Made by a program: the position numbers and the translations under genes
Shown: positions 28,444 through 37,246 of the stretch, in pieces
How the letters are laid out: each line of letters opens with the position of its first letter
Position numbering within the stretch: position 1 is the first letter of the stretch
Assembly: GCA_019429045.1 (NCBI GenBank)
Contig: JAHYJL010000009.1
Span: 1-38,189 of the forward strand
DNA length: 38,189 bases
Source: Bacteroidales bacterium
GTDB lineage: Bacteria > Bacteroidota > Bacteroidia > Bacteroidales > JAGOPY01
Direction: 5' to 3'
The notes under the pieces: generated by a model
Databases searched by the model: none
Seen by the model: the letters and a program-made list of their open reading frames with translations, nothing else
What the model was told of the DNA's origin: nothing

Positions 28444-31053
28444 TTATCTTCGCCTTGCCAGCACGCAGGCTTTTTTAAAACGATCTGTTTTACCATCCAT
28501 GCCCAGGGCCTCCAGGTAAATAACATAGATGCCATTGGGTGCGGCGGTCCGGTCTTCCAGCCGCCCATCCCATGAACTCATCCCGGAAGTTCCGCATAAC
28601 TCATTGTTCAAAACGGTCCTGGCAAGGTAACCATCTGCGCTGAAAATCAATATATTGACCATTTTGCCCGGGGTATCGAAAGAATATGAAATGCCCAGTT
28701 GGTCATCCCGTCCGTCCCCGTCGGGTGAAAATACTTCCGGATAAACCGAAAAAGCGCTTTTGTTGTCCCAGCCGGCAAGGAATTGTGAATTCTGGTAACC
28801 GGGCGTCCCGAACCCGACCGCCTCGGCGGCAGAGTGCCAGTTGTCAGAATGGTCTCCCAGCCGGTCTGGTGAAATTCGCTCCAGGGCGACGCCTTTATAG
28901 GAATTGAGCAAAGGAAGGTGCATTTCTTCCCGATACGTCATGCCATCGATCACCTCACCCTCCTTGTTTAGTAAAAGGGCCAGCCCCTTGTCGTTATTAT
29001 AGGAAGGAAATGATGTCATTTTCCGGAAAGCCCTTGCATTTTCGGTATGATACTGGCTTTTCACTTTTTCGGGATCGGAAGTCAGTACCATATATTTTCC
29101 CGGCAGAAGGGTTAAGCAGTTGGCAGTCAATGCATACGACTGTGTATCCGGTGAATTGGGCGGGGTTTCCTTTACCGTTGCAAGCAATAGGTCGTCAAGG
29201 CTGATCGCATTGCCCGACCTGTTATAGATCTCTACATAGTCAACGCCATCTCCCAGCGGATTAAAAAGTATCTCGTTGATAATCAAGTCAAAAGCGCCGG
29301 CAGGGTGTGACATGGCAAACGTCCCTTCCATCGAAGCAGCAGCCTCTGTTCCGATACAATTTTGAAAACCGGTATTAATGGTAAGTGTATAAATTTGTCC
29401 GGGAATGATATCTTCATTGAAAATGAGCCTGACAGCTTTATTCAAAGGAGGCATGAATGTCACTTCTATTGGCTCAAACAAAAAAGGTTCAGCCAGGAAG
29501 TTGTTTTTTTCTCCTCCCATTGAAATACCGGCAGACTCGCTGAGGGTCACTTCTATTTCACGGTTATTCAAAACGCAGATATTTTCGATTGCAAAATCAG
29601 GCCATGGCACCGGCTGATAATAACGCTCTTTTCCAGGGGTTCCGCCCAGTGGATCACCGGAAGCCTTCCAGTTAATTTCTCCCAGGCATGGATTTTCAAC
29701 ATGGATCATCTCCATTGACCACCCTCCGTCTGACTTTGCTTTATCATTGTACCAGGAAATGTCGTATTGCAGGTAGCAGATTGTATTTTCATCCCGGTCG
29801 GTCAGATGGATCACCGCTCCGCTGTTGGGAAGATTGAACGAAGATAAACCCACGACCTGACAGAAGAAATTCAGTATATGCACTGCCGGCTGGCTGGAAA
29901 CCAGCATATATTCTCCTGATTTTAAAGTGATGGCAGGAAGTGTATGTTTTGTCGAGGAGATTTGCAGGCCCCATCCATCCAGCGAAATATCGTAAGGACT
30001 TCTGTTGAATAGTTCAAGGTATTCATATTCGGGCAGCATGACCGGTGGGGACGGATCGGCCATAATTTCGGTGATGATCACATCATAAGGTTGGGGCATA
30101 TAATACATGATGGGTTGCGTAATCAGTCCTGAAATATTCCCGGCCAGATCATGAATATTGTTGATTGTCAGTTCATAAAGTGACCCGTTTTGCATTTCCC
30201 GGTCAAAAAACAAATATACTTTTTCAGGATCCAGCATGCGGACGGCTTCATATGGATGGCCAATATCCGGGGATATTTCATAATGGATCACATTTTCAGC
30301 GCCTTCCTTGTCTACCGCCTCGCTGAATGTCAGCAGGATCTCCTCCGGATTGACGATAGTTGTTGCTGCCAACCAGGGCGGAATGGTATCAATGATCATA
30401 GGCCCTGCATAAAAATCATCGAAGTAGTATTTGGTGACATTCGATGACGTATACTGGCAAAATATCCCGAAATATTCACCCTCAGACCATGTCAGGTCGG
30501 TCACCTCACCCTGTTCTACCGGCAGGGATCCGCCTGATGGGTCAGCCAGAAAAGTCCAAAGGCCATCGGACTGCCTGGTAATTTTAAACCGGACCGCATT
30601 GGTCGAATTACCTGTATAGACAGTACTTAAGCGCATTAATTTTATTATGGTAGCTGAATCCTGGCGGCAGAACCAGGCGCTGTCGTCCGCTCCGCCCACC
30701 TGGATAAAATAACCGTTCAGCGGGCCCTTGAGGTCTGCGGTATCGCTCATAAGGCAGAGCCGGGCATAATTACCTGCGGAGGTATTAAAACTGAGCTTTA
30801 TCCAGCCGTGCCATTCCAGGGCTCCGGATAAATGGACGGACACCCCCAATGCCGATTGCCCTGCACCGGGCGCATCCAGCTGCAAAGCCGGCCGCATCGG
30901 TTCAGGAATGGCGGTGGAAGAACTGATCTTAAAATGGTCCCTGTCGCCCGTCCAGGAAGGATTATTTGTAAAATCCCCATCGGAAAAATCATCCGAAATT
31001 TGGGCCCCTACCCACAAAGGAAACAGGGCGATTAACAGCATTCGTTTTCTCAT
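28444..31053 (-). CDS. Secreted lamin-tail-domain (LTD) protein with Ig-like modules and a CHU_C/FlgD-like C-terminus
   Basis: Two LTD-like units (DVIITEIMADPSPP...EYLELFNRS; FDLIINEILFNPLGDGVDYVEIYNRS); C-terminus YPEVFSPDGDGRDDQLGISY...AAPNGIYVIYLEA. Confidence 0.85.
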   Translation of the reverse strand: MRKRMLLIALFPLWVGAQISDDFSDGDFTNNPSWTGDRDHFKISSSTAIPEPMRPALQLDAPGAGQSALGVSVHLSGALEWHGWIKLSFNTSAGNYARLCLMSDTADLKGPLNGYFIQVGGADDSAWFCRQDSATIIKLMRLSTVYTGNSTNAVRFKITRQSDGLWTFLADPSGGSLPVEQGEVTDLTWSEGEYFGIFCQYTSSNVTKYYFDDFYAGPMIIDTIPPWLAATTIVNPEEILLTFSEAVDKEGAENVIHYEISPDIGHPYEAVRMLDPEKVYLFFDREMQNGSLYELTINNIHDLAGNISGLITQPIMYYMPQPYDVIITEIMADPSPPVMLPEYEYLELFNRSPYDISLDGWGLQISSTKHTLPAITLKSGEYMLVSSQPAVHILNFFCQVVGLSSFNLPNSGAVIHLTDRDENTICYLQYDISWYNDKAKSDGGWSMEMIHVENPCLGEINWKASGDPLGGTPGKERYYQPVPWPDFAIENICVLNNREIEVTLSESAGISMGGEKNNFLAEPFLFEPIEVTFMPPLNKAVRLIFNEDIIPGQIYTLTINTGFQNCIGTEAAASMEGTFAMSHPAGAFDLIINEILFNPLGDGVDYVEIYNRSGNAISLDDLLLATVKETPPNSPDTQSYALTANCLTLLPGKYMVLTSDPEKVKSQYHTENARAFRKMTSFPSYNNDKGLALLLNKEGEVIDGMTYREEMHLPLLNSYKGVALERISPDRLGDHSDNWHSAAEAVGFGTPGYQNSQFLAGWDNKSAFSVYPEVFSPDGDGRDDQLGISYSFDTPGKMVNILIFSADGYLARTVLNNELCGTSGMSSWDGRLEDRTAAPNGIYVIYLEALGMDGKTDRFKKACVLARRR

Positions 31054-31099
31054 GGTCTTTTTTCTGTTAATCGGGATTTTTTGGAAATATACCCGGGGG

Positions 31100-31211
31100 G
31101 TTTCTTGTTTTTTGTTTCGAGTTTCGAGTTTCGAGTTTCGAGTTTCGAGTTTCGAGTTTCGAGTTTCGAGTTTCTTGTTTCGAGTTTCTTGTTTCGAGTT
31201 TCTTGTTTCTT
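31100..31211. repeat. Heptamer tandem array, 16 x GTTTCGA/GTTTCTT
   Basis: Counted directly: gtttctt, gtttttt, 8 x gtttcga, gtttctt, gtttcga, gtttctt, gtttcga, gtttctt, gtttctt. Confidence 0.95.
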
Positions 31212-31223
31212 GATTTTAATTAC

Positions 31224-31251
31224 ACGGAACACGAAACCAGAAACCCGAAAC
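31224..31251. repeat. Four degenerate heptamers in inverted orientation to the 31100-31211 array
   Basis: Reverse complement of 31224-31251 reads GTTTCGG GTTTCTG GTTTCGT GTTCCGT. Confidence 0.8.
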
Positions 31252-31266
31252 AATGCACGAATTGAC

Positions 31267-31274
31267 TATTTTTG
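31267..31274 (+). promoter_or_regulatory. -7 box TATTTTTG for asd
   Basis: TAnnTTTG 17 bp before ATG 31292, inside the N-terminal extension of the tracked ORF. Confidence 0.55.
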
Positions 31275-31291
31275 CAAAAAATTCAGCATTT

Positions 31292-32284
31292 ATGAAGATT
31301 GGCGTTGTTGGTGCAACCGGTTTGGTAGGCCGGGAAATGATACGGGTACTGGAGGAGATTGACCTGGGGGAAGAGACATTTATTCCTGTTGCGTCCGAAA
31401 GATCTGCGGGGCAGAAGGTCAGTTATAAAGGCAGGGAACACACAGTCATCACACTGGACGAGGCACTGGAGCAAGACCCGCAAATCGTTATTTTTTCTGC
31501 CGGGGCGTCGGTTTCGAGAGAATGGGCGCCCAAATTTGCCGACAGGGGCGCTTTTGTTATCGATAATTCATCGGCATGGCGGAAGGAACAGGGCATTCCC
31601 CTGGTCGTTCCCGAGATCAATGCTGCTGTGATACGGCCGGAAGACAGGATCATTTCCAATCCGAACTGCTCCACCATCCAGCTGGTAATGGTACTGGCGC
31701 CGCTGCACCGGAAATTCGGGATCAGGCGTGTGGTGGTGGCTACTTATCAGTCGGTGACGGGAAGCGGCGCCAAAGGCATGTTGCAACTGGAGAACGAACG
31801 GAAAGGGATTGCCGGACCGCTGTTTTATCCCCACACCGTCGACCTCAATCTTATCCCGCAGGCGGGAGATTTTACAGGCAATGGTTACACGACAGAAGAA
31901 GAAAAGCTTGCTTTTGAAACCTGTAAGATCATAGGCGATGACAATATAAGAGTGACAGCAACGGCGGTCAGGGTACCTGTGTACGGAGGGCATTCCGAAG
32001 CAGTAAATATAGAGTTGGAGCGCCCTTTTGAGGTCAGTGAGGTCAGGGAACTGCTTTCAGGGGAAAGGGGAATCGTAGTGCAGGACGATCCGGCAGCGGG
32101 AATCTACCCCATGCCAAAATTTACACGCGGCAGCAATGACGTCTTTGTCGGCCGGATCAGGCGGGACAATACCATTGCCAACGGGCTGAACCTGTGGATC
32201 GTGGCGGATAACCTGAGAAAAGGCGCCGCCACCAATGCGATTCAGATCGCGCAGTATTTGATTCAGAGTGGATTGATCAGATAA
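31292..32284 (+). CDS. asd: Aspartate-semialdehyde dehydrogenase
   Basis: MKIGVVGATGLVGREMIRVLEE; SNPNCSTIQLVMVLAPLH; RVPVYGGHSEAVNIEL. Confidence 0.95.
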   Translation: MKIGVVGATGLVGREMIRVLEEIDLGEETFIPVASERSAGQKVSYKGREHTVITLDEALEQDPQIVIFSAGASVSREWAPKFADRGAFVIDNSSAWRKEQGIPLVVPEINAAVIRPEDRIISNPNCSTIQLVMVLAPLHRKFGIRRVVVATYQSVTGSGAKGMLQLENERKGIAGPLFYPHTVDLNLIPQAGDFTGNGYTTEEEKLAFETCKIIGDDNIRVTATAVRVPVYGGHSEAVNIELERPFEVSEVRELLSGERGIVVQDDPAAGIYPMPKFTRGSNDVFVGRIRRDNTIANGLNLWIVADNLRKGAATNAIQIAQYLIQSGLIR

Positions 32285-35610: not shown

Positions 35611-36186
35611 ATGAAAAAGTTGTACGAATCGGTTGACAAATGTATAAAAAAATACAAGCTATACGTATTGCGGGATGTGCTGATATTTGCCATCATTATC
35701 CTGTCGGTACACTTTTCTTATCGCTACTGGGCTAATAAGACCCGTTACTGGCCGATAACAGAACAGATGAACATGAGCCATGAGGTCATGTCTCAGCTTG
35801 TTTATGACCAGAGTATTTGGCTTATTATACATGTGCTTCATATTCCGGTCACTGCCGATGATGAATTACGCATCATATATTTTCAGAACACAGGTTTTCT
35901 GGGTATCAACCACAGTTGTTCCGGGCTGAAACCTATTCTTCAGTTTGTTCTGCTTATGCTGATTTTTCCCGGTCCATGGAAACATAAGGCCTGGTTCATT
36001 CCGATGGGGATTGTTATCGTGCATTTTACCAATCTTTTCCGCATCACAGGGCTGGCAGTCGTTACAATTACCATTCCGCAACACTGGGATTTCGCCCACG
36101 ATAACGTTTTCCGGCCGTTTTTCTACGTGGTGATCTTTTTTCTCTGGGTACTCTGGGTAGAGCGCTTTCGACCGAGGCTATCGTAA
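35611..36186 (+). CDS. Exosortase/archaeosortase family protein
   Basis: Multi-TM; 'INHSCSGLKPILQFVLLMLIF' (Cys), 'HFTNLFRITGLAVV' (Arg), 'WDFAHDNVFRPFFYVVIFFLWVLW' (His): Cys/Arg/His triad layout. Confidence 0.85.
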   Translation: MKKLYESVDKCIKKYKLYVLRDVLIFAIIILSVHFSYRYWANKTRYWPITEQMNMSHEVMSQLVYDQSIWLIIHVLHIPVTADDELRIIYFQNTGFLGINHSCSGLKPILQFVLLMLIFPGPWKHKAWFIPMGIVIVHFTNLFRITGLAVVTITIPQHWDFAHDNVFRPFFYVVIFFLWVLWVERFRPRLS

Positions 36187-37122: not shown

Positions 37123-37166
37123 TATTTATACAAAAATAACCAAAAAAAGCCAATATATTACAACCT

Positions 37167-37246
37167 CCTACCGTCTTACTGTCCTACCGTCTTACAGTCC
37201 TACCGTCTTACCGTCCTACCGTCATACCTTCGAACCGTCGTACCGC
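37167..37246. repeat. Tandem array, 10 x 8 bp (five 16-bp double units; consensus CCTACCGT CTTACNGT)
   Basis: cctaccgt cttactgt cctaccgt cttacagt cctaccgt cttaccgt cctaccgt catacctt cgaaccgt cgtaccgc. Confidence 0.92.

Follow-up and report, generated by a model that had tools for sequence, protein, structure and literature searches.

Heptamer arrays of GTTTC and two free bases in Bacteroidales intergenic spacers: the array between asd and its divergent neighbour as a probable copy of a dispersed repeat family

Reports of intergenic heptamer repeats come from scattered bacteria, and no function has been agreed for them. Heterocystous cyanobacteria carry several families of intergenic tandem heptamers per genome, the STRR heptanucleotide repeats, which differ from the repeats described here in their words and in their phylum. 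Among repeat units of 5–11 nt heptanucleotides were found to be the commonest, with slippage proposed (Mrazek et al. 2007, as summarised in PMC4679880); these long simple sequence repeats are the general class, for which that summary gives neither polarity nor turnover between congeners. Rehm et al. 2015 (PMC4692102) described quadruplex-forming GGGNATC and GGGGA(C/T)T heptamers in Xanthomonas and Nostoc, for which the nearest open-reading frame lies on the 5′ side whatever its own orientation, and which, where they come within 50 bp of an open-reading frame, lie on its antisense strand if the edge is a start and on its sense strand if it is a stop. MacGregor 2015 (PMC4679880) described TAACTGA heptamers in Beggiatoaceae, Cyanobacteria and some Bacteroidetes.

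The GTTTCNN arrays reported here belong to this already known class of bacterial intergenic heptamer repeats, and a literature search found no report of this word in arrays. Like the repeats of Rehm et al. they have a 7-bp unit with free positions, are dispersed, intergenic and either single or in inverted pairs, show the same polarity towards the 5′ neighbour and are flanked by genes of mixed function; unlike them, they have no G-tract at fixed positions and cannot form the same quadruplex (G runs occur only in a minority of arrays with GG spacers), and their arrays are longer. The TAACTGA repeats are likewise 7-mers of intergenic spacers close to starts, now and then in reverse orientation just past a stop, and in some Bacteroidetes form long arrays mixed with other heptamers, with relatives having shorter spacers free of repeats; their word, however, is different and non-degenerate, and in Beggiatoaceae is mostly present in 2–6 copies (PMC4679880).

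The array that led to this family lies in the window (the whole stretch of DNA analysed, 38,189 nucleotides of a Bacteroidales genome, G000) between two divergent genes: asd, encoding aspartate-semialdehyde dehydrogenase by Pfam (31292..32284, + strand), and a gene for a protein with LTD, Big_5 and CHU_C domains (28444..31053, − strand), CHU_C being a type IX secretion signal. Homology to relatives places the asd start at ATG 31292 (MKIGVVGATG), and an ATG at 31253 inside GAAACAATG is probably not the start. The window also holds a gene for an exosortase-like (EpsH) protein at 35611-36186.

The main array (31100..31211, + strand) consists of 16 in-phase heptamers over 112 bp, 15 GTTTCNN and one GTTTTTT, in the order GTTTCTT, GTTTTTT, eight GTTTCGA, GTTTCTT, GTTTCGA, GTTTCTT, GTTTCGA, GTTTCTT and GTTTCTT from 31100. 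The first-pass annotation had described sixteen GTTTCGA or GTTTCTT units: the number and length stand, the GTTTTTT unit is neither variant, and the mixture of GA and TT at the 3′ end and the centre of GA units alone are as it had described. The 12-bp gap it gave, GATTTTAATTAC, is present at 31212-31223. Beyond it, the opposed arm (31226..31253, − strand) opens with an imperfect unit, GGAACAC (31226), followed by GAAACCA (31233), GAAACCC (31240) and GAAACAA (31247), so that the four inverted heptamers annotated earlier are three perfect units and one imperfect; read on the GTTTC strand their spacer bases are GG, TG and GT, unlike those of the main array. The arm stops at 31252/31253 and the −7 box of asd, TATTTTTG (31267), starts 14 bp on: the arm does end upstream of the box, at this distance and not the 15 bp first given. 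The window holds 11 four-unit GTTTCNN matches vs 0 in 100 dinucleotide shuffles, and the 7-nt tandem units run beyond chance length, the chance expectation being zero.

The same divergent pair is kept in a congener (G001), in which asd is 69% identical and the spacer is conserved on both sides of an empty site. On the left, the LTD promoter side (31043..31096, containing CTGTTAATC and ending in TATACCCGG) corresponds to CATRGTCTTTTYTCTGTTAATC...TATACCCGG in the congener; on the right, AATTSACTATTTTTGCA (31260..31276, + strand) is conserved with the −7 box TATTTTTG (31267-31274) in it, whilst the array is absent. The array with its junctions (31097..31259) thus takes up 163 bp here vs 21 bp in the congener, as measured by separate alignments of the left and right flanks; the left alignment scores far above shuffles, whilst the right one is equalled or beaten by the best of its shuffles and relies on synteny and on its agreement with the −7 motif. 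Elsewhere the LTD–asd spacer holds other words: octamer-like NNAGTCYCT repeats in a genome of the same family (G002), an opposed GGAG.../CTCC... octamer-like pair in G146 and AACTCAA heptamers immediately before the −7 box in G077. The octamer-like repeats of other words in this spacer, the opposed pair of G146 among them, are at L229:2440-2720 and L227:2500-2720. The congener also carries a 44-copy GAACGGT/GAACAGT array (L226:161-478) downstream of asd and the gene that follows it, at a place where our genome has no spacer at all.

It was initially suggested that the array could change promoter spacing or topology through its copy number. It sits between two divergent promoters, outside the asd open-reading frame, and because it is also outside the conserved −7 box, copy number would alter the distance between the promoters but should not alter core promoter spacing; any effect on expression is probably mild and indirect. 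A phase-variable switch, in which slippage in the array would adjust transcription both of asd and of the divergent LTD surface protein, would suit an array placed between two promoters, one of them serving a protein with a type IX secretion signal, in a genome where related copies of one sequence differ in array length. We consider it improbable: the array is out of the coding frame and 14 bp upstream of the −7 box, asd is a housekeeping gene, the congener keeps both promoters without an array, and the same family lies beside dozens of other genes. The last two points also speak against any device specific to asd.

Base-pairing between the two parts of the array, which the first-pass annotation had predicted, is borne out by folding (z of −3.9 as RNA and −4.0 as DNA against dinucleotide shuffles), the predicted hairpin being built of 5–6 bp steps with single mismatches. 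Such a fold could act in RNA as a terminator, attenuator or transcript stabiliser. However, array and opposed arm are probably in neither the asd nor the LTD mRNA, because the pair has the −7 box downstream of it and the promoter side of LTD beyond its other end; most arrays in the genome have no partner arm, and a search of Rfam with the hairpin returned only sub-threshold matches to microRNA precursors, at chance level and far below gathering scores. An RNA role is thus the least credible of the explanations weighed here, and we regard it as very improbable.

Across the draft genome (2.89 Mb in 239 contigs) overlapping four-unit GTTTCNN matches number 165 + 111 = 276 vs 23 for the reversed word, and array-start patterns indicate about 50 arrays. 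Detailed reading of 590 kb gave 68 arrays of at least three units, 60 of them outside called open-reading frames; unit numbers are approximate, the genomes being partly drafts and several arrays ending contigs. The five-base core is constant, though the search word itself fixes it, whilst the last two bases vary from array to array (dominant spacer bases TT in 34 arrays, GT in 20, TG in 6, GA in 5 and GG in 3) and are homogenised within each: adjacent units share identical spacer bases in 330 of 456 cases, a fraction expected to be 0.33. Arrays tend to retain at their end the G of the following unit. Nor is this the only word, as many unrelated heptamer and octamer arrays occupy the intergenic space of this genome, including GTTCTGA, AACTCAG, GGTTCTT, TCYTACMG and more in an unselected sample, where strong period-7 stretches reach 133/Mb vs 6/Mb at 80 Bacteroidota asd loci. 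A second repeat family, the octamer array TCCTACCG/TCTTACCG, is found in the window at 37166-37245 and elsewhere adjoins GTTTC arrays (L072, L078). Some non-GTTTC arrays (L045, L051, L055, L078) enter the 3′ ends of genes, with a stop codon (TAG) inside the repeat (CTACGCC, TCCTACCG), and look as if C-termini had been eroded or extended.

GTTTCNN arrays extend beyond this genome. Among 149 genomes of relatives, ours counted, 20 carry them, nearly all of the same order, vs roughly 10 for the reversed word; across the phylum they occur in 13 of 198 genomes vs roughly 7 (control genomes were counted by eye). This recurrence in distant Bacteroidota, with consistent polarity, would suit an array of binding sites, in which a genome-wide regulator or a nucleoid- or RNA-binding protein reads GTTTC at 7-bp spacing, fixing the core and freeing two bases. 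So would the imperfect in-phase units, in which core positions 1–3 are almost invariant (the changed position was 5 in 34 units, 4 in 7, 1 in 2, 2 in 1 and 3 in none); these units are, however, clonally expanded and the counts not independent. Other spacers are occupied by related words (GTTTTGA, GTTCCTG, GTTCTGA) as well as unrelated ones, and turnover between congeners is near-total, both of which make a common binding protein an unlikely explanation.

Arrays are placed non-randomly relative to genes, the outcome of a check that the first-pass annotation had proposed. With the 5′ side defined on the GTTTC strand, the smaller gap to a gene is on that side in 43 of the 57 arrays here with both neighbours known (p = 1.5e-4), and in 52 of 63 arrays in other Bacteroidota genomes (p = 1.7e-7). 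At distances of up to 10 bp from a gene edge, 34 arrays in our genome approach by their 5′ end vs 3 by their 3′ end, starts and stops being about equal, and no start has the 3′ end of an array within 30 bp; in the other genomes the counts within 30 bp are 33 vs 2. Genes were called with a simple codon-usage caller whose starts are uncertain, yet the polarity holds at stops alone. We rejected background composition as the sole cause of the polarity, the A/T skew beside starts and stops being small. Other arrays, pooled by their pyrimidine-rich strand, gave no bias (44 of 80), whilst single word families were polar, GTTTTGA in 17 of 19 arrays here and CAATTGTT in 15 of 16 in the congener, some with the opposite sign (many families were tested).

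GTTTCNN arrays occur singly or as inverted pairs, and in all 15 pairs (10 here, 5 elsewhere) the order is GTTTC...GAAAC. The opposed arrangement at asd follows from this placement, because each edge of one spacer bears an outward-reading array. An alternative is a mobile hairpin of MITE or REP type, with arms that expanded later and with single arrays as half-elements. The constant order of the arms is in keeping with it, and some inverted pairs may indeed be copies of one element, because five of them, asd included, have in common a centre that resembles GATTGTAATAACAC; in four of the five the left arm is of GTTTCTT type and the right arm of GAAACAC type. At asd the spacer GATTTTAATTACAC (31212..31225) with the next GGAAC matches GATTGTAATAACACGAAAC, the centre that sits between opposed arms at four other loci, at 16 of 19 bases, GAAAC included, and so differs at three. 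But the centre is present in only 5 of the 10 pairs here and most arrays are single, so as an account of the family as a whole the mobile hairpin seems doubtful.

Slippage as the means of expansion, proposed initially from the homogeneous centre of the asd array, fits both such homogeneous blocks and three related in-genome copies of one sequence in which the in-phase units at one common point number 4, 5 and 9. In these copies (L074:3900-4400, L074:8230-8740 and L079:3600-4240) the GTTTC array is followed by AATGTCCACCTAATGTCGCGAGCGCAGCGAG-type 11-mers, and the sequence may be the end of a mobile element. Loss of mismatch repair was considered and set aside as uninformative: a contig end truncates the mutS1 match here, and a full-length mutS1 is present in other genomes rich in arrays.

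Between this genome and the congener G001, 81 gene pairs are syntenic and 15 of their spacers bear an array in one or both genomes: nine in ours only, five in the congener only and one in both, where the main words differ. Turnover thus affects 14 of the 15, and marks the arrays, as far as these gene pairs indicate, as recent, lineage-specific insertions; the repeats of Rehm et al., by comparison, are 83% kept between two Xanthomonas (PMC4692102).

We conclude, with a probability of roughly three in four, that the feature at asd is one copy of a dispersed family of intergenic simple sequence repeats, heptamers of GTTTC and two free bases. The family is multi-copy, absent from the orthologous site of the congener, homogenised within arrays and polar to gene edges. 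New arrays would be copied or seeded at intergenic positions from other arrays, would then grow and shrink by slippage, and would survive where the flanking genes are undamaged. The tolerated orientation would be GAAAC-sense just before starts and GUUUC-sense just after stops, and arrays at both gene edges of one spacer would give an inverted pair as at asd. Three points sit less easily with this dispersed-repeat reading: simple slippage leaves the words common to dozens of sites unexplained, tolerance accounts less readily for the polarity at stops than for that at starts, and composition alone, given the small background A/T skew, does not predict the polarity.

What is new here is the 5′ polarity of a word without G-tracts, together with the near-complete turnover of arrays between congeners. 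As several Bacteroidota families show the polarity with a word that forms no quadruplex, the placement rule is separated from G4 structure, and the origin and spread of arrays become testable through orthologous empty and filled sites. More tentatively, and with the balance somewhat against it, an unrecognised widespread process may set heptamer arrays 5′-end-first at starts and stops, acting on words with no relation to one another, GTTTCNN in Bacteroidota and GGGNATC in Xanthomonas and Nostoc, spreading a given word across a genome and replacing it between congeners; if such a word-independent process exists, quadruplex formation is excluded as the cause of the polarity.
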